From assembly GCF_016735595.1 (NCBI RefSeq), contig NZ_JAERRB010000009.1:124001-188000 (forward strand): a DNA stretch of 64,000 nt, in the 5' to 3' direction. The position numbers were made by a program, and so were the translations under genes. The notes beneath the pieces were generated by a model. That model was not told the origin of the DNA and did not search any database. It was given only the letters and a program-made list of their open reading frames with translations. The stretch is from Chryseolinea lacunae (GTDB lineage: Bacteria; Bacteroidota; Bacteroidia; Cytophagales; Cyclobacteriaceae). Of this stretch, positions 20,351 through 28,049 are shown piece by piece; position 1 is the stretch's first letter, and every line of letters begins with the position of its first letter.

Positions 20351-22045
20351 TCAGGCGGCTGCCGCAGCGGCAGCCTCTTCCTCTTTCAGTGCCCGTCTCA
20401 AAATTTTGCCCACATTGGTTTTGGGCAATTCTTTACGAAACTCGATGTGCTTGGGAACCTTGTAGTTCGTGAGGTTCTCGTGGCAATATTTGCGCAGCTC
20501 GTCTTCCGTCAGGCTCTGGTCGCGCTTCACCACAAAGATCTTGATCACCTCTCCCGATTTTGCGTCGGGCACGCCAATAGCCGCCACCTCCAGCACTTTC
20601 GGATGAGCCGCCACCACGTTCTCGATTTCGTTGGGAAACACATTGAAGCCCGACACTTTGATCATGTCTTTCTTCCGGTCCACGATCTTGAAAAAACCTT
20701 CCGTGTCCATGGTGCCGATGTCGCCCGTGCGGAACCATCCGCCCGGAAAAAACACACCGTCGTTGTCTTTTCGCCAATAGCCCGACATCACTTGTGGACC
20801 ACGGCCACAGATCTCTCCCACTTCGCCTTGCGGCAACTGGTTTCCCTGCTCGTCGAAGATGGCCACTTCGGTGTTGGGCATAGGCAAACCTATGGTTCCC
20901 AGTTTGTGTTTGCCATCCAGCGGGTTGCAGCACAACACGGGCGATGTTTCGCTCAGGCCATAGCCTTCCACCAAGGCCGTTCCCGTCACCTCTTTCCATT
21001 TCTTGGCCACCACGTCCTGAACTGCCATACCTCCACCCACAGCGCCGTGCAGCGTCGAAAAGTCCAGGTCCTTAAAGCCTTCGGTGTTCAGCATGCCGTT
21101 GAACAGCGTGTTCACGCCGGTGAGAATGGTGAACTTATATTTTTTCAACTCTTTGATAAATCCTTTCATGTCGCGCGGGTTCGTGATCAGCACGTTCTTC
21201 ACACCCGTGCTAAACATGAGCAGACCGTTCACGCTCAAGGCAAAGATGTGATACATGGGAATGCCCGTGATGATGAGGTTTTCGCCTTTCCCGTTCATGT
21301 AGGGCTTGAACCACTCGGTGATCATCGAGTTGTGCGCGATAAGATTGCCATGCGAAAGTTGTGCGCCCTTGGCGATGCCCGTAGTGCCTCCTGTATATTG
21401 CAGCACGGCAACGTCGTTCACATCACATTTCACCGGCTGCAGTTTCAAGGCTGCGCCACGCTTCATGGCTTCCTTAAACGTGGTGTGCGGAACGTTGTAG
21501 GCCGGCACCATCTTCTTGATGTTCTTCACCACAAAATTTACAAGTGCACCTTTCAACCCACCCAGCATGTCGCCAAGCTGCGTCACGATGACGTGTTTTA
21601 TGGGATAGTTGGCAATCACTTTCTCGAGGTGAAACGCAAAATTTGAAACGATCACAATCGCCGAGATTTCCGCATCCTTAAACTGATGCTCCATCTCGCG
21701 CGGTGTATACAGGGGATTGGTATTGACTACGATGAGCCCCGCTCGAAGGGCCCCGATCAAAATGACGGGGAACTGCAGCATGTTGGGCATTTGAATGGCA
21801 ATGCGATCGCCCTTTTTCAGGTTGAGGTCCTGCTGAAGATAGGCTGCAAAATGAGAAGACCGTTCGTCAAGCTCGCGATAGGTCATGGGCACGCCCATAT
21901 TTTCATAGGCTACACGGTCGGGATATTTCGAAAATCCTGCATCAAAAAAATCTTGCAGCGAAGGATAATCATAGAGATTGATTTCGTGGGCAACGCCTTC
22001 CGGGTAGTTTTTGAACCAGGGAAATTCTTTCATAGAACTGAACAA
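20351..22045 (-). CDS. fadD: Long-chain fatty acid--CoA ligase
   Basis: A 564-residue AMP-forming acyl-CoA synthetase. The P-loop-like motif is LQYTGGTTGIAKGAQLSHGN; downstream are VEGYGLSETSP, GWFRTGDIG (the adenylate-binding aspartate) and the A10 lysine in NVGKILRRALK. Length and motif order match FadD. The C-terminus ends in an unusual run of Glu then Ala (EEEAAAAAAA). It is monocistronic; the terminator of the tRNA-like unit lies 100 bp upstream, insulating it. Confidence 0.93.
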   Translation of the reverse strand: MFSSMKEFPWFKNYPEGVAHEINLYDYPSLQDFFDAGFSKYPDRVAYENMGVPMTYRELDERSSHFAAYLQQDLNLKKGDRIAIQMPNMLQFPVILIGALRAGLIVVNTNPLYTPREMEHQFKDAEISAIVIVSNFAFHLEKVIANYPIKHVIVTQLGDMLGGLKGALVNFVVKNIKKMVPAYNVPHTTFKEAMKRGAALKLQPVKCDVNDVAVLQYTGGTTGIAKGAQLSHGNLIAHNSMITEWFKPYMNGKGENLIITGIPMYHIFALSVNGLLMFSTGVKNVLITNPRDMKGFIKELKKYKFTILTGVNTLFNGMLNTEGFKDLDFSTLHGAVGGGMAVQDVVAKKWKEVTGTALVEGYGLSETSPVLCCNPLDGKHKLGTIGLPMPNTEVAIFDEQGNQLPQGEVGEICGRGPQVMSGYWRKDNDGVFFPGGWFRTGDIGTMDTEGFFKIVDRKKDMIKVSGFNVFPNEIENVVAAHPKVLEVAAIGVPDAKSGEVIKIFVVKRDQSLTEDELRKYCHENLTNYKVPKHIEFRKELPKTNVGKILRRALKEEEAAAAAAA

Positions 22046-22135
22046 AAAAGGTTGATTTCCTTACGGATAAAATATAAAATCCAAAGCAAACGATTGTTTG
22101 CCAGCAAATCAATAGCGAAATATGCGAAAGGATGA

Positions 22136-22169
22136 AAATAAAAAACCCGCCCCGACAAGTCGGAGCGGG
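22136..22169 (-). terminator. Terminator of the tRNA-like transcription unit
   Basis: Arms 22159-22169 and 22146-22156 form an 11-bp stem (one G-U pair) with a 2-nt loop on the minus strand, followed by TTTTTTATTTT. It is 37 bp past the 3' end of the first tRNA-like gene and before fadD, so it ends a minus-strand transcript containing both tRNA-like genes. Confidence 0.85.
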
Positions 22170-22205
22170 CAGCTCTGAATAACTCATTAACCTAAACTGA
22201 GCTTG

Positions 22206-22353
22206 CTGTAGAGGAAGGAGTCGAACCTCCACGGAGCGGTTAGGCGTCAGACCTGATCCTGGTAGTAGTTACTGGGATCAGGGGCTTTCACTTTCTTCCG
22301 TACTCTCCACCCCCGAGACCGGAGGGCTTGTCTGCCAATTTCAACACCCTACA
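22206..22353 (-). tRNA. tRNA-like gene 1: class II Leu-type body, non-canonical anticodon loop
   Basis: Reads as a full cloverleaf on the minus strand. The acceptor stem is TGTAGGG (22353-22347) with CTCTACA (22213-22207), discriminator G. The D-arm TTGAAATTGGCAGACAA resembles bacterial tRNA-Leu. The anticodon stem CCCTC/GGGGG is fully paired. The T-arm at 22230-22214 has loop TTCGACT. The seven-base anticodon loop is CGGTCTC: position 33 is G, not U, and the nominal anticodon GUC fits neither Leu nor Ser, the usual class II tRNAs. The variable region is 79 nt, far longer than normal, with an internal 8-bp hairpin (CCTGATCC/GGATCAGG). CCA is not encoded. Probably not a decoding tRNA; an inactive tRNA relic is the main alternative. 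Confidence 0.6.
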
Positions 22354-22354
22354 A

Positions 22355-22390
22355 TGTGTTTGTTGTGTGTGTGTGTGTGCGTGTGTGGTT
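22355..22390. repeat. GT/AC simple-sequence tract between the tRNA-like genes
   Basis: An almost pure GT tract on the plus strand. On the transcribed minus strand it is AC-rich and unstructured, and forms the spacer before tRNA-like gene 1. A similar AC-rich stretch (about 22511-22545) precedes gene 2, so each copy has the same kind of leader. Confidence 0.7.
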
Positions 22391-22391
22391 G

Positions 22392-22509
22392 CTGTAGAGG
22401 GAGGGTTCGAACCTCCACGGAGCAGTTAGGTCGCCAAAGGCTGGACTTTATCCCGTTTTCTCCACCCCCGAGACCGGAGGGCTTGTCTGCCAAATTTCAA
22501 CACCCTACA
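22392..22509 (-). tRNA. tRNA-like gene 2: paralogue of tRNA-like gene 1
   Basis: Second copy of the same cloverleaf: acceptor 22509-22503 with 22399-22393, D-arm TTGAAATTTGGCAGACAA, G at 26, anticodon stem CCCTC/GGGGG with the identical loop CGGTCTC (22476-22470), and T-arm loop TTCGAAC with a perfect GGAGG/CCTCC stem. Acceptor, anticodon arm and discriminator G equal those of gene 1, while the variable region is 48 nt instead of 79. Both variable arms share a GGAG/CTCC base, a CGG segment and a CCTAAC segment. It lies upstream of gene 1 in the transcript. Confidence 0.6.
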
Positions 22510-22559
22510 AGGTTGTGTTTTGTTGTGTGAGTAATGTGTGTGCGTTGTAAAATCTTTAA

Positions 22560-22567
22560 CAAAGTAA
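22560..22567 (-). promoter_or_regulatory. Weak candidate -7 element for the tRNA-like unit
   Basis: The minus strand reads TTACTTTG, five of the six fixed positions of TAnnTTTG, and would start transcription about 45 nt before tRNA-like gene 2. No -33 match is seen. Low confidence. Confidence 0.2.
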
Positions 22568-22606
22568 CACAAAACCTGATACCTAAATCAAGAAAGTATT
22601 CGAATA

Positions 22607-22640
22607 ATTGTAGATTTTTTAAAATTGTTTCATATTTTTG
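22607..22640 (+). promoter_or_regulatory. Promoter of the Lrp/AsnC gene
   Basis: TATTTTTG at 22633-22640 matches TAnnTTTG exactly; ATTG at 22607-22610 lies 22 nt upstream, within the usual -33/-7 spacing. The predicted leader before the ATG at 22667 is about 20 nt. Confidence 0.45.
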
Positions 22641-22666
22641 AATTATAGTCAAAACTCAAATTTTAC

Positions 22667-23131
22667 ATGGCCGAAAATTATAAAGTTGATAATGTCGATC
22701 TGAAGATTTTGGAAATCCTCATGCAAGACGCGAAGAAACCCTATACAGAAGTGGCAAAAAAAGCCTTCGTATCAGGAGGCACCGTGCACGTGCGCATGAA
22801 CAAGCTCGAAGAAGCAGGCATTGTCGAGAAAACCACCCTTAAAGTAAACTATGCCAAACTGGGCTACGACATCACCGCCTTCATTGGCATATTCTTACAG
22901 AAAAGCGCCCTCTATGATCAGGTAATGGCCAAACTGAAAGCCATTCCCGAAATCACGAACATACACTACACCACCGGCAACTACAGTATGTTCACAAAAA
23001 TTCACTGTAAGGACACCAATCACCTCAAACAGGTGTTGCACGATAAGATCCAACAAGTGGAAGGCATTGAACGGACCGAAACCATGATCTCGCTGGAAGA
23101 AAGCCTCGACAGAAGTCTCAACCTTACCTGA
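22667..23131 (+). CDS. Lrp/AsnC family transcriptional regulator
   Basis: A 154-residue regulator: an N-terminal winged helix (VDLKILEILMQDAKKPYTEV, recognition helix in GGTVHVRMNKLEEAGI) and a C-terminal RAM/AsnC ligand-binding domain (YDITAFIGIFL through HYTTGNYSMF). Members respond to amino acids as octamers. It is 102 bp upstream of sufB on the same strand, but sufB has its own promoter and operator, so the two need not be linked. The ligand and targets are unknown. Confidence 0.92.
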   Translation: MAENYKVDNVDLKILEILMQDAKKPYTEVAKKAFVSGGTVHVRMNKLEEAGIVEKTTLKVNYAKLGYDITAFIGIFLQKSALYDQVMAKLKAIPEITNIHYTTGNYSMFTKIHCKDTNHLKQVLHDKIQQVEGIERTETMISLEESLDRSLNLT

Positions 23132-23192
23132 CGCCGGCTTCCATAGCGAAAACTTCTGAAGGGTTTTGAACCTAGAAATGGCATTTTTGTTA

Positions 23193-23200
23193 TACTTTTG
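23193..23200 (+). promoter_or_regulatory. -7 element of the suf operon
   Basis: TACTTTTG matches TAnnTTTG exactly. A TTTG at 23165-23168 is 24 nt upstream, slightly long for the -33 spacing. Predicted start is near 23207, at the edge of the operator-like dyad. Confidence 0.45.
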
Positions 23201-23206
23201 TAGGTT

Positions 23207-23230
23207 GTTTAAAATTAGTCTAAATAGACT
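23207..23230. promoter_or_regulatory. Putative iron/Fe-S operator of the suf operon
   Basis: Contains the perfect 6-2-6 palindrome AGTCTAAATAGACT (23217-23230), ending 3 bp before the sufB ATG. The segment from 23207 matches 17 of 22 positions of a site between the ferritin and porin genes at 51025-51046. Its place at or just after the predicted transcription start suits a repressor. The binding protein (Fur-, DtxR- or IscR/SufR-like) cannot be named from sequence. Confidence 0.5.
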
Positions 23231-23233
23231 GCT

Positions 23234-24679
<1,446 letters not shown>

Positions 24680-24724
24680 TTTTTTTATCATTCTTATCTC
24701 AGTATTGAATTTTCTATTGGAACT

Positions 24725-25480
24725 ATGTTAAGCATAAAGAATCTTACAGCGAAGATCGGCGACAAGCAAATCCTGAACGGCATAAACCTGGATGTGAAAC
24801 CTGGCGAAGTGCATGCCATCATGGGCCCCAACGGCTCGGGCAAAAGCACACTGGCATCGGTGCTGGCAGGTCGCGAGGAATATGAAGTGACCGGAGGCGA
24901 AGTCGATTTCCTCGGTAAAAATCTGTTGGAGCTTTCGCCCGAAGATCGCGCTCGCGAAGGCATGTTTCTCGCCTTTCAATATCCCGTGGAAATCCCCGGT
25001 GTGAGCACCATCAACTTTATGAAAACTGCCGTGAACCAGATTCTGGAATACCGCGGACAGCAACCCCTGGATGCCGTATCGTTTCTGAAAGTGATGAAAG
25101 AAAAAATGAAGCTCGTGGAAATCGATCAGTCGTTGCTGAACCGTTCACTCAACGAAGGCTTTTCGGGTGGTGAGAAAAAACGCAATGAGATTTTCCAGAT
25201 GGCCATGCTGGAACCCAAGCTCGCCATCCTCGACGAAACCGATTCGGGCCTCGACATCGATGCGTTGAAAATTGTCTCCAACGGTGTCAACAAACTGCGC
25301 ACAAAATCAAACGCTGTCATAGTGGTCACACACTATCAGCGTCTGCTGGATTATATCGTACCGGATTTTGTTCACGTGCTCTACAAGGGTAAGATTGTGA
25401 AGTCCGGCACGAAAGAACTCGCGCTGGAACTGGAGGCAAAAGGATACGATTGGATCAAGGACGAAGTGGCGGTAGCCTAA
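24725..25480 (+). CDS. sufC: Fe-S cluster assembly ATPase SufC
   Basis: ABC-type ATPase of the SufBCD complex, 251 residues. Walker A is IMGPNGSGKSTLASVLAG, the ABC signature FSGGEKKRNEI, and Walker B AILDETDSGLD, with the H-loop histidine in VVTHYQRLLDYI. It lies 45 bp after sufB and 9 bp before sufD. Confidence 0.97.
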   Translation: MLSIKNLTAKIGDKQILNGINLDVKPGEVHAIMGPNGSGKSTLASVLAGREEYEVTGGEVDFLGKNLLELSPEDRAREGMFLAFQYPVEIPGVSTINFMKTAVNQILEYRGQQPLDAVSFLKVMKEKMKLVEIDQSLLNRSLNEGFSGGEKKRNEIFQMAMLEPKLAILDETDSGLDIDALKIVSNGVNKLRTKSNAVIVVTHYQRLLDYIVPDFVHVLYKGKIVKSGTKELALELEAKGYDWIKDEVAVA

Positions 25481-25489
25481 GCACACAAC

Positions 25490-26800
25490 ATGAGCGTAGC
25501 GGTAGAAAAGAACACCACGGCAGAAGTGGTGAGCATCATCGAAAAAAGTCTGGCCCGGTTTCCTTCGCAGGAAAACCGGAAAGAAGCCCTCGCGGCCTTT
25601 CAGAAATTAACATTACCAGAAAACAAGTCGGAAGAATATAAGCAAACGCCCATCACGCGCCTGCTGCAACGGAATTTCGCACTCGACAAACCGAATGCCG
25701 CAGCGCAATCGCTGGACGCCAAAGAATTTTTTATTCCCGGTGTTGAAGGTAACGTCATCGTTATCATCAACGGCTTGTTTTCAGTTGAACATTCTGTCAT
25801 TGTATCGCCCACCGACCAAGTAACTATCTCGGGCCTGGGCAAAGCGGTGAACGACAACCACCCTGTGGCCCTCGCCCACCTTGCAAAATACACCGACGTA
25901 GCAACCGATCCGTTTGCCGCCTGGAACACCGCCGCGTGGAGCGACGGCGTATTCATTCACGTGCCCAACGGCAAAGTTGTTGACAAGCCTGTTCTTGTCT
26001 ATCACATTCACGATGCCCGTCAGGGCCAGGTCATCACAGCCGGGCGAAACCTGATTGTGACCGGCACGAACAGCGAAGTCACCGTCATTGAAAAATATGA
26101 CTCGCTGGGTTCAGACAATCATTTCTCGACAACAATCACCGAAGCCGAAGTAGCAGAGAACGCGGGCTTCAATTTATACACCATTCAAAACGATGCCGGC
26201 AACCGCTATCAGTGGGCAGGCACCAACATTCACCAGGAACGGTCGAGCCGGGTGAACACCTATACGTTCACGCTTGCCGGCAAGCTCGTGCGCAACAACC
26301 TCCAGCTTTCGCTGGACGGCGAAGGCATTGAATCGCACATGTTTGGACTATATCTGGTGACCAACGATACACTGGCTGATAACCACACCGTGGTAGATCA
26401 CCGGAAAGCCAACTCGTTCAGCAACGAACTCTACAAGGGCGTGATGGATGGAAACTCCAAAGGAGTTTTCAACGGAAAAATATACGTAAGACCACAAGCC
26501 CAGAAAACCAATGCCTTTCAAGCCAACCGGAACATCATCATCTCCGACAAGGCCCAGGTGAACACAAAGCCCCAGCTCGAAATCTGGGCCGACGATGTGA
26601 AATGCTCCCACGGTTGCACCACCGGCCAGCTCGACGAAGAAGCATTGTTCTATCTGCAAGCCCGAGGCATTGCCAAAGACACTGCCCGTGCCATGATGCT
26701 CTACGCATTTGTGGGCGAGATCCTGGAAAATGTGAAAATCCCCGAACTTAAAGCCTACCTGGATAAGTTAGTGAGTGAACGGCTCCACAAAAACTTCTAA
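25490..26800 (+). CDS. sufD: Fe-S cluster assembly protein SufD
   Basis: SufB paralogue that completes the SufBC2D scaffold and helps iron acquisition. 436 residues, with the typical C-terminal WADDVKCSHGCTTGQLDEEALFYLQARGI split here over residues about 365-395 and a beta-helix core with low N-terminal conservation. It is positioned between sufC and sufS, 9 bp and 4 bp from its neighbours, so translation is tightly linked. Confidence 0.95.
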   Translation: MSVAVEKNTTAEVVSIIEKSLARFPSQENRKEALAAFQKLTLPENKSEEYKQTPITRLLQRNFALDKPNAAAQSLDAKEFFIPGVEGNVIVIINGLFSVEHSVIVSPTDQVTISGLGKAVNDNHPVALAHLAKYTDVATDPFAAWNTAAWSDGVFIHVPNGKVVDKPVLVYHIHDARQGQVITAGRNLIVTGTNSEVTVIEKYDSLGSDNHFSTTITEAEVAENAGFNLYTIQNDAGNRYQWAGTNIHQERSSRVNTYTFTLAGKLVRNNLQLSLDGEGIESHMFGLYLVTNDTLADNHTVVDHRKANSFSNELYKGVMDGNSKGVFNGKIYVRPQAQKTNAFQANRNIIISDKAQVNTKPQLEIWADDVKCSHGCTTGQLDEEALFYLQARGIAKDTARAMMLYAFVGEILENVKIPELKAYLDKLVSERLHKNF

Positions 26801-26804
26801 GACC

Positions 26805-28049
26805 ATGACCACAGCTTCTCCTGCCCTGTCCGTAATCGACGTTGAAAAGATCAGGAAAGAATTCCCCATCCTGCATCAAACTGTTAACGGACGCGACCTT
26901 GTTTATCTCGACAACGCCGCCACCTCGCAAAAACCGCTGGTGGTCATCGACGCGCTAACGGACTATTATAAAGGATATAATGCCAACATTCACCGTGGCA
27001 TCCACACCTTGGCAGAGAAAGCGACAAAAGCCTTTGAACAAACCCGCCACACGGCGAAACAATACATTAACGCGGCATCCGAACAGGAAATCATTTTCAC
27101 CCGCGGCGTCACCGAAGGCATCAACCTGGTGGCTACCTCCTATGGCCGAACCTTTGTGAAAGAAGGCGACGAGATCATTGTGTCGGAGCTGGAACATCAT
27201 TCCAACATTGTGCCCTGGCAGTTTGTGTGCGAAGAAAAGAACGCCACACTCAAGGTCATTCCCGTGAACGACAATGGCGAACTCGACCTGGACACCTATC
27301 GGAAACTGCTTTCGTCTAAAACCAAAATTGTGTCGGTGAACCATGCATCCAATAGCCTGGGCACCATCAATCCCATAAAAGAAATTATCCGCCTGGCCCA
27401 CGAAGTTGGCGCTGTGGTGTTCATCGACGGTGCACAAGCCGGAGCACACCTGGAAATTGATGTCCAGGATCTGGACTGCGACTTCTATGCCGTGTCGGCC
27501 CACAAAATGTATGGCCCCACCGGCACAGGTTTTCTCTACGGCAAAAAAGAACAGCTGGAGAAAATGCCTCCCTACCACGGCGGCGGCGAAATGATTAAAG
27601 AGGTGACGTTCAAAAAAACCACCTACAACGACCTGCCCTATAAATTCGAAGCCGGCACGCCCAACATTGGCGATGTGGTGGCTTTTAAATACGCGATGGA
27701 CTTCATCACCGGACTGGGTCGCGAAACCATGGCAGCCTACGAACACGAACTGTTGCTGTACGCAACCGAACGTGTTTCAAAACTGAAAGGTGTGAAACTG
27801 ATTGGAACCGCTGCACACAAAGTGAGCGTGTTGTCATTCACCGTGGACGGAATACATCCGTTTGATATTGGCCAGATGCTCGATGCCCGCGGAATTGCCG
27901 TGCGCACGGGCCATCATTGCACGCAACCCCTCATGGATCGCTACGAAATTGAGGGAACTGTGCGCGCTTCCTTCGCTATTTACAACACTAAAAAGGAAGT
28001 TGATCAACTTGTGGAAGGATTGGAGAGGATTATTAATTTTATGAAGTAA
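26805..28049 (+). CDS. sufS: Cysteine desulfurase SufS
   Basis: PLP enzyme that takes sulfur from cysteine for cluster assembly (414 residues). The PLP lysine is in SAHKMYGPTGTGFLYG and the active-site persulfide cysteine in RTGHHCTQPLM, the group II (SufS) form that needs SufE. I start at the ATG 4 bp after the sufD stop; the in-frame ATG at 26775 would overlap sufD by 26 bp and add a non-conserved leader. Confidence 0.96.
   Translation: MTTASPALSVIDVEKIRKEFPILHQTVNGRDLVYLDNAATSQKPLVVIDALTDYYKGYNANIHRGIHTLAEKATKAFEQTRHTAKQYINAASEQEIIFTRGVTEGINLVATSYGRTFVKEGDEIIVSELEHHSNIVPWQFVCEEKNATLKVIPVNDNGELDLDTYRKLLSSKTKIVSVNHASNSLGTINPIKEIIRLAHEVGAVVFIDGAQAGAHLEIDVQDLDCDFYAVSAHKMYGPTGTGFLYGKKEQLEKMPPYHGGGEMIKEVTFKKTTYNDLPYKFEAGTPNIGDVVAFKYAMDFITGLGRETMAAYEHELLLYATERVSKLKGVKLIGTAAHKVSVLSFTVDGIHPFDIGQMLDARGIAVRTGHHCTQPLMDRYEIEGTVRASFAIYNTKKEVDQLVEGLERIINFMK

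Follow-up and report, generated by a model that had tools for sequence, protein, structure and literature searches.

What would a bacterium do with a tRNA that has a complete core but a loop that seems unfit for decoding? The question is raised by a locus of Chryseolinea lacunae within the window analysed here (the whole 64-kb stretch of DNA, 64,000 nucleotides). A preliminary description had placed two tandem class II tRNA-like genes on its minus strand, and both were confirmed there, with a cloverleaf backed by covariation. The features of the locus are listed below, with scores for the covariance model R1, which was built from 18 copies of the RNA.

22392..22509, minus strand: tRNA-like RNA copy 1, 118 nt from U1 to G73; R1 125.5 bits, E 7.6e-31; evidence from covariation
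22470..22476, minus strand: anticodon loop of copy 1, CGGTCTC, positions 32-38, with GUC at 22474-22472; evidence from the sequence and the family profile
22206..22353, minus strand: tRNA-like RNA copy 2, 148 nt; R1 120.8 bits, E 1.4e-29; evidence from the two-copy alignment
22315..22321, minus strand: anticodon loop of copy 2, CGGTCTC, positions 32-38; evidence from the sequence and the family profile
22560..22591, minus strand: Bacteroidota-type promoter candidate, TTG at 22591-22589, 21-nt spacer, TTACTTTG at 22567-22560
about 22137..22170, minus strand: terminator-like hairpin and T run 3' of copy 2, seen in the sequence
22667..23131, plus strand: AsnC-type (Lrp/AsnC family) regulator gene, divergent from the RNA genes; Pfam Lrp/AsnC domains, NCBIfam

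In both copies TGTAGGG and CTCTACA form an acceptor stem of 7 bp that includes one G-U pair, followed by a 3-bp D stem with GG in the D loop, a 5-bp anticodon stem with one U-G pair, a T arm with the loop TTCGAAC or TTCGACT, and a discriminator G; position 33 is G and positions 34-36 read GUC. The tRNA-Leu-like D-arms, the two T-loops and the paired stems that had been described were all seen, as was a terminator-like element after the pair (about 22170-22137). In the alignment the main difference of copy 2 from copy 1 is an extra hairpin inserted in the variable arm. The candidate promoter element TTACTTTG has one mismatch to TANNTTTG, which we take to be the Bacteroidota-type consensus. Across the window and 80 fetched loci of the same kind, mismatch-free promoter sites with a spacer of 17-23 were present upstream in 37 of the 81 loci versus 22 of 1620 mononucleotide shuffles, and terminator-like sites lay within 120 nt downstream in 49 of the 81 versus 21 of 1620 shuffles.

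Standard annotation tools passed over these genes. ARAGORN called neither copy and reported no tRNA in the window, and none of its calls overlapped any of the 142 copies collected below. At the gathering score Rfam matched no tRNA or other RNA anywhere in the window, and at E values up to 10 over 22000-22700 it returned weak sub-gathering matches with no tRNA family among them; in two control loci Rfam did recover the ordinary tRNAs. The Rfam tRNA model RF00005 had no gathering-score match in 10 other loci of the RNA either. Among the matches listed from the open-access PMC literature, no published description of the RNA was found.

Beyond the window, homologous DNA was present in 43 of 59 relatives. 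In a sample of 247 genomes from the class, 43 had an R1 match at E<=1e-13, all of them at <=9.4e-16, in large searches run with stricter filters under which weak matches can drop out; ordinary class II tRNAs reached best R1 scores of about 1e-8 to 1e-13. A looser count, 283 of 291 genomes of the order at E<=0.001, was rejected as a measure of prevalence because ordinary class II tRNAs were mixed in. An exact-pattern scan returned at least 119 stretches, and among the matches listed every title named a member of the Bacteroidota, save for a MAG described simply as a bacterium; they include Chitinophaga, Niabella, Dyadobacter, Hymenobacter, Pontibacter, Cyclobacterium, Algoriphagus, Echinicola (with a match in Echinicola shivajiensis) and other genera, all of which we take to belong to the phylum Bacteroidota. 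The window and the 80 fetched loci gave 143 matches, of which 142 were kept, the one dropped being an 82-nt, ordinary-looking class II tRNA with A73 and a different acceptor. There was one copy in 47 loci, two in 21 and at least three in 13, with a maximum of seven. The genes are stand-alone units, often in tandem. We consider the RNA family secure; it is widespread in Bacteroidota.

The fold was assessed by covariation. In the unfitted alignment A2 (18 sequences) 10 of 30 pairs had changed on both sides, a value reached in 0 of 500 shuffles. In alignment A4, with 117 distinct rows that represent 123 copies and 75 of the 81 sources, 20 of 30 pairs had both-side changes and 97.2% of cells were paired (0 of 500 shuffles equal), counts that lean towards the cloverleaf because A4 was fitted to the structure; pairing fell to 53-58% when the A4 partners were slid by 1-3 columns. 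The folding energy of single sequences (six copies) was no better than that of shuffles, with z from -1.60 to +0.64, so support for the cloverleaf rests on covariation. The stems match those of class II tRNA, with 7 bp in the acceptor, 3 in the D, 5 in the anticodon and 5 in the T stem. The variable region is 38-123 nt long (median 63, 142 copies) and is built of two short stems that covary, an internal loop and a terminal stem that is variable. The consensus of the internal loop is RAYAAA opposite CUAA, with the first and third positions varying; the four As of the first strand are present in 131-141 and the CUAA positions in 132-141 of the 142 copies. This conserved loop is likely a contact site, for a protein or within the tertiary fold. 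In one copy (L006, 1292-1459) a hairpin is inserted in the D loop with the remaining tRNA elements intact, and a few others have enlarged D loops.

One homologue departs from this plan. In genome G048, a 76-nt, class-I-like relative (L270, 1500-1576) has U1-A72, G73, C74 and the loop CTATCTC, is without the long variable arm and is called tRNA-Asp(atc) by ARAGORN. G048 encodes asnA, and no AsnC gene was found in the 3-kb stretch around the homologue. In this single case the RNA, which AsnA may render superfluous, could be decaying or streamlined; G066, of the same genus, has both asnA and the full-length RNA.

The positions kept by the 142 copies say more about what the RNA might do. U1-A72, the pair looked for in a GatCAB substrate, G2-C71 and G73 are each present in 142/142. 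So is an encoded C74, which together with a free position 75 (CCA is encoded in 19 copies) might form a processing or binding signal. In the anticodon loop U35 and C36 are each found in 141 and C38 in 139 copies, and position 34 is G in 112, A in 14, U in 10 and C in 5. Positions 34-36 read NUC in 141 copies, with one copy gapped, and a Leu or Ser anticodon is found in none. Among the fetched loci, 62 of 76 genomes have a GUC copy and 14 have none, and 28 of the 29 copies in which G34 is replaced by A, U or C come from the window's own order. Position 33 is U in 100 copies, G in 26 and C in 15, and position 37 is U in 125, C in 13 and G in 4 but never A. The replacement of U33 by G therefore holds for both copies of the window and not for the family; G33 is a local state, and the stable part of the loop is U35-C36 with C38. 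G10 is present in 12 copies and G1-C72 in none. The letters that follow the GG of the D loop are mostly C-A-G, which means, in Leu-type numbering of our own assignment, that there is no U20a.

These positions can be read against published identity elements. According to PMC9976931, the strong determinants of aspartylation are G73, G34, U35, C36 and C38, with G1-C72 and G2-C71 also crucial; U1-A72 marks Asp-tRNA-Asn for amidation, which G1-C72 and U20a block in tRNA-Asp. PMC4206432 likewise gives U1-A72 as a GatCAB determinant, and PMC6523644 counts G10 as an aspartate determinant in E. coli. By the determinants of PMC9976931, the RNA's DETERMINANTS joins an AspRS-type anticodon loop and discriminator to a GatCAB-type acceptor end. 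Efficient aspartylation is not assured, since G1-C72 is missing and G10 mostly so, and the loss of G34 in 29 of 142 copies counts against strict recognition by AspRS. As far as the letters can tell, the features given up, strict U33 and a purine at 37 (found in 4 copies), are those that decoding needs. The suggestion of a dedicated non-decoding tRNA fits this pattern, with core and determinants kept and positions 33 and 37 not.

The relevant enzymes were tabulated in the same draw of 247 genomes, with the presence of GatCAB read from gatB. gatB was present in 43/43 genomes with the RNA versus 139/204 without it. Where GlnRS is lacking, Gln-tRNA requires GatCAB, and gatB was indeed found in 149 of 152 such genomes irrespective of the RNA. 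Among the 95 genomes with GlnRS (94 over the cut-off) all 25 that have the RNA also had gatB, versus 8 of the 70 without the RNA, giving a Fisher value of 2.5e-16 in which kinship is ignored. In the three families of mixed RNA status, the GlnRS-containing genomes comprise 13 with the RNA, all with gatB, and 6 without it, all lacking gatB; all 19 agree, and shuffling these 19 genomes within families gave a chance agreement of 1 in 5040. The eight exceptions, which have GlnRS and GatB without the RNA (G331, G372, G406, G434, G460, G483, G504 and G525), all belong to one family, f33, and their GatB scores are weaker, at about 1e-103 to 1e-108. A broader model, R2, was run on 78 genomes without the RNA and, among the matches listed, gave only 80-88-nt class II-like matches plus the 76-nt homologue of G048. 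Overlooked copies were considered as the cause of the f33 exceptions and rejected, R2 having listed no long-armed copy there.

AsnRS was found in 75 of the 76 genomes tested for it, including 42 of the 43 with the RNA and all 25 that have both the RNA and GlnRS. GatCAB is therefore not needed for Asn-tRNA in those genomes, and in the 25 it is without a known translational job because AsnRS and GlnRS are both there. AsnA and E. coli-type AsnB are rare alongside the RNA. AsnA was found in 14 of the 247 (13 over the cut-off), with one, G066, among the 43 that have the RNA. The broad Asn-synthase family TIGR01536, some of whose proteins might make asparagine, matched 226 of the 247 genomes, including 41 of the 43 that have the RNA, and was uninformative, so the E. 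coli-type model NF006949 was used after a check on E. coli AsnB. Among GlnRS-containing genomes this model exceeded its cut-off in none of the 25 with the RNA and in 22 of 55 without (G466 falling just under); the test covered 55 of the 70 such genomes without the RNA and, of the 43 genomes with the RNA, the 25 that have GlnRS. Counting AsnA or an over-cut-off AsnB of this type, the figures are 0 of 25 versus 25 of 55. Absence of both synthetases is not specific to the RNA, because 30 of those 55 genomes lack both as well. By association, the link of the RNA to GatCAB and asparagine is strong.

The gene neighbourhood pointed the same way. An AsnC-type gene lies beside the RNA in 45 of 81 loci, always divergently and 92-328 nt away, the 44 other neighbours being 51-81% identical to the window's protein. 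Of the remaining 36 loci some are extra loci of one genome; per genome, among the fetched loci, an AsnC-linked locus was present in 45 of 76 and absent in 31. The window's regulator scores 170.9 bits with the NCBIfam AsnC model, below the cut-off of 227, compared with 87.4 for the next-best model and 48.5 for Lrp, and its nearest solved chain is E. coli AsnC (2cg4, E 1e-36). In E. coli, asnA is under AsnC control. An AsnC gene beside asnA or asnB would have been strong evidence, but none was seen for 37 such genes in 36 loci; apart from the asnA of G066, these genes came from genomes in which R1 had no match. Used as a query, the window's AsnC found a relative in four of four positive-control loci and none in L270, L303, L310 or L326. 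The other recurrent neighbours share no common pathway: they include M28 peptidases, a pseudouridine synthase, three with no Pfam match and, within part of the order, suf genes and an AMP-binding enzyme. In the window a suf operon follows 3' of the AsnC-type gene (22667-28049 with that gene), with SufB identified by Pfam and sufC, sufD and sufS presumably completing it; a SufB-cluster gene is found again in 13 of the 81 loci, and in 12 of these AsnC is close by.

Our main reading, to which we assign a probability of roughly 0.55, is that the RNA is a dedicated non-decoding tRNA on which aspartate is amidated to asparagine under AsnC control. The RNA would be transcribed from its own promoter and matured as a tRNA, CCA addition included. 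AspRS would load it with aspartate, reading U35, C36, C38, G73 and usually G34, and GatCAB would recognise U1-A72 and convert the bound aspartate to asparagine, which would then be set free into the pool used by AsnRS. On the ribosome, an Asn-tRNA with an aspartate anticodon would misread Asp codons; the changes at loop positions 33 and 37, together with the great length of the variable arm, may bar it from entry, and the divergent AsnC-type regulator would tune expression to asparagine supply. A non-decoding carrier would explain why an Asp-type anticodon is coupled to U1-A72 and decoding avoided, why GatCAB is retained beside GlnRS and AsnRS, and why an AsnC-type gene is adjacent. For the fuller claim, that the RNA is a cofactor of amino acid synthesis, a translation-proof and AsnC-controlled tRNA that allows an ordinary AspRS together with GatCAB to produce free asparagine in place of an asparagine synthetase, we put the chances at about even.

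Among the closest known systems is tRNA-dependent asparagine synthesis by non-discriminating AspRS and GatCAB on tRNA-Asn, as in Deinococcus, Thermus and Bdellovibrio, which has AspRS-type determinants and U1-A72 in common with the RNA. There the carrier is an ordinary tRNA-Asn that later decodes, whereas here it would be a separate RNA with an Asp-type anticodon, a long structured variable arm and an altered loop, for which a non-discriminating AspRS would in principle be dispensable. Canonical tRNA-Asp(GUC) resembles the RNA in G34 (112/142), U35, C36, C38, G73 and G2-C71 but has G1-C72, unlike the RNA with its U1-A72, class II build, loose U33, lack of A37 and G10 in 12/142. The allo-tRNAs and tRNA-Sec-like tRNAs (the subject of PMC7609411) are similar in their long variable arm and unusual anticodons, but have acceptor and T stems of 8/4 or 9/3 bp rather than the 7 + 5 of the RNA.

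Among the alternatives, a regulatory role as a tRNA mimic, signalling aspartate or asparagine status through binding to AspRS, GatCAB or AsnC, is in our view unlikely, if worth weighing. Such a role would suit the AsnC linkage, the lost decoding features and the stand-alone, often tandem units with candidate promoters and terminators, but it has no obvious need for a whole tRNA core with invariant G73-C74 and U1-A72. It also leaves the retention of gatB in GlnRS-containing genomes with the RNA unexplained, unless GatCAB makes asparagine on tRNA-Asn. 

A point against the main reading comes from PMC4206432. It notes 18 genera, Bacteroidetes among them, that have AsnRS, GlnRS and GatCAB and no asparagine synthetase, all with U1-A72 in tRNA-Asn; GatCAB is kept there under the same circumstances as here. 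Synthesis on ordinary tRNA-Asn is put forward for Bdellovibrio in that paper and regarded as an option for some Bacteroidetes. Because the genomes studied here may do the same, the RNA need not be a GatCAB substrate; asparagine made on ordinary tRNA-Asn, with the RNA in another role, is possible.

Quite unlikely, in our judgement, is a non-decoding donor of aspartate or asparagine for a transferase (of wall, lipid, peptide or natural product) and not for free asparagine, a reading with the same determinants and the same gatB association behind it. Its precedent is the non-translating tRNA-Gly of staphylococcal wall synthesis, which is likewise a dedicated tRNA thought to stay off the ribosome, but is of normal size and differs in amino acid, partners and architecture. 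Against this reading, the recurrent neighbours scanned included no transferase family, and the AsnC linkage and rarity of Asn synthetases favour asparagine supply. The wall or lipid donor role offered as an example in the preliminary description was accordingly unsupported: the AsnC neighbour, the co-occurrence with gatB and the rarity of AsnA and E. coli-type AsnB point to asparagine synthesis.

We find it very doubtful that the RNA is a repurposed class II tRNA that accepts serine or leucine. It does share with tRNA-Leu and tRNA-Ser the 3-bp D stem, the Leu-like D loop, the long variable arm and the T arm; what sets it apart is the NUC anticodon, a variable region of median 63 nt with an internal loop, U1-A72 and its invisibility to the Rfam tRNA model. 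G73 occurs in bacterial tRNA-Ser, which would fit; SerRS, however, ignores the anticodon, yet U35, C36 and C38 are near invariant, and the discriminator of tRNA-Leu is not G73. Neither acceptor explains gatB or AsnC.

A decoding role, as an odd tRNA-Asp (or Glu) isoacceptor for some condition, is highly improbable. U33 in 100 copies and the NUC anticodons speak for it, but a canonical tRNA-Asp(GUC) is already encoded in the window's genome, A is never found at position 37 (U, C or G instead), position 33 is G or C in 41 copies, the variable region runs to 123 nt, and U1-A72 would invite amidation and mistranslation. Relic genes or pseudogenes, which the altered decoding features and the shortened homologue in G048 might suggest, can be dismissed given the covariation, the invariant core, the promoter and terminator candidates and the conservation across the class (43 of 247 genomes), neither absence from relatives nor decay of the stems having been seen, in keeping with the earlier argument against simple decay.

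We return to the non-decoding carrier of asparagine synthesis and what it would mean. To our knowledge, tRNA-dependent synthesis of Asn, Gln, Cys and Sec takes place only on tRNAs that later decode, and we know of no earlier tRNA with the sole job of carrying an amino acid through a biosynthetic step. If the reading is true, the RNA would represent a new function for tRNAs, that of a pure biosynthetic carrier, with the synthesis role split from decoding. Annotation pipelines gain an RNA gene overlooked by ARAGORN and Rfam. In PMC7311316 (GapMind), Echinicola vietnamensis and a Pedobacter strain are listed with the bacteria that can make all 20 amino acids and for which large-scale mutant data exist. 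The carrier would also bear on a question put in PMC4206432, namely why some bacteria, including Bacteroidetes, keep GatCAB together with AsnRS and GlnRS and have no asparagine synthetases, and it could account for asparagine where genome-based predictions leave a gap in a large group of environmental bacteria.
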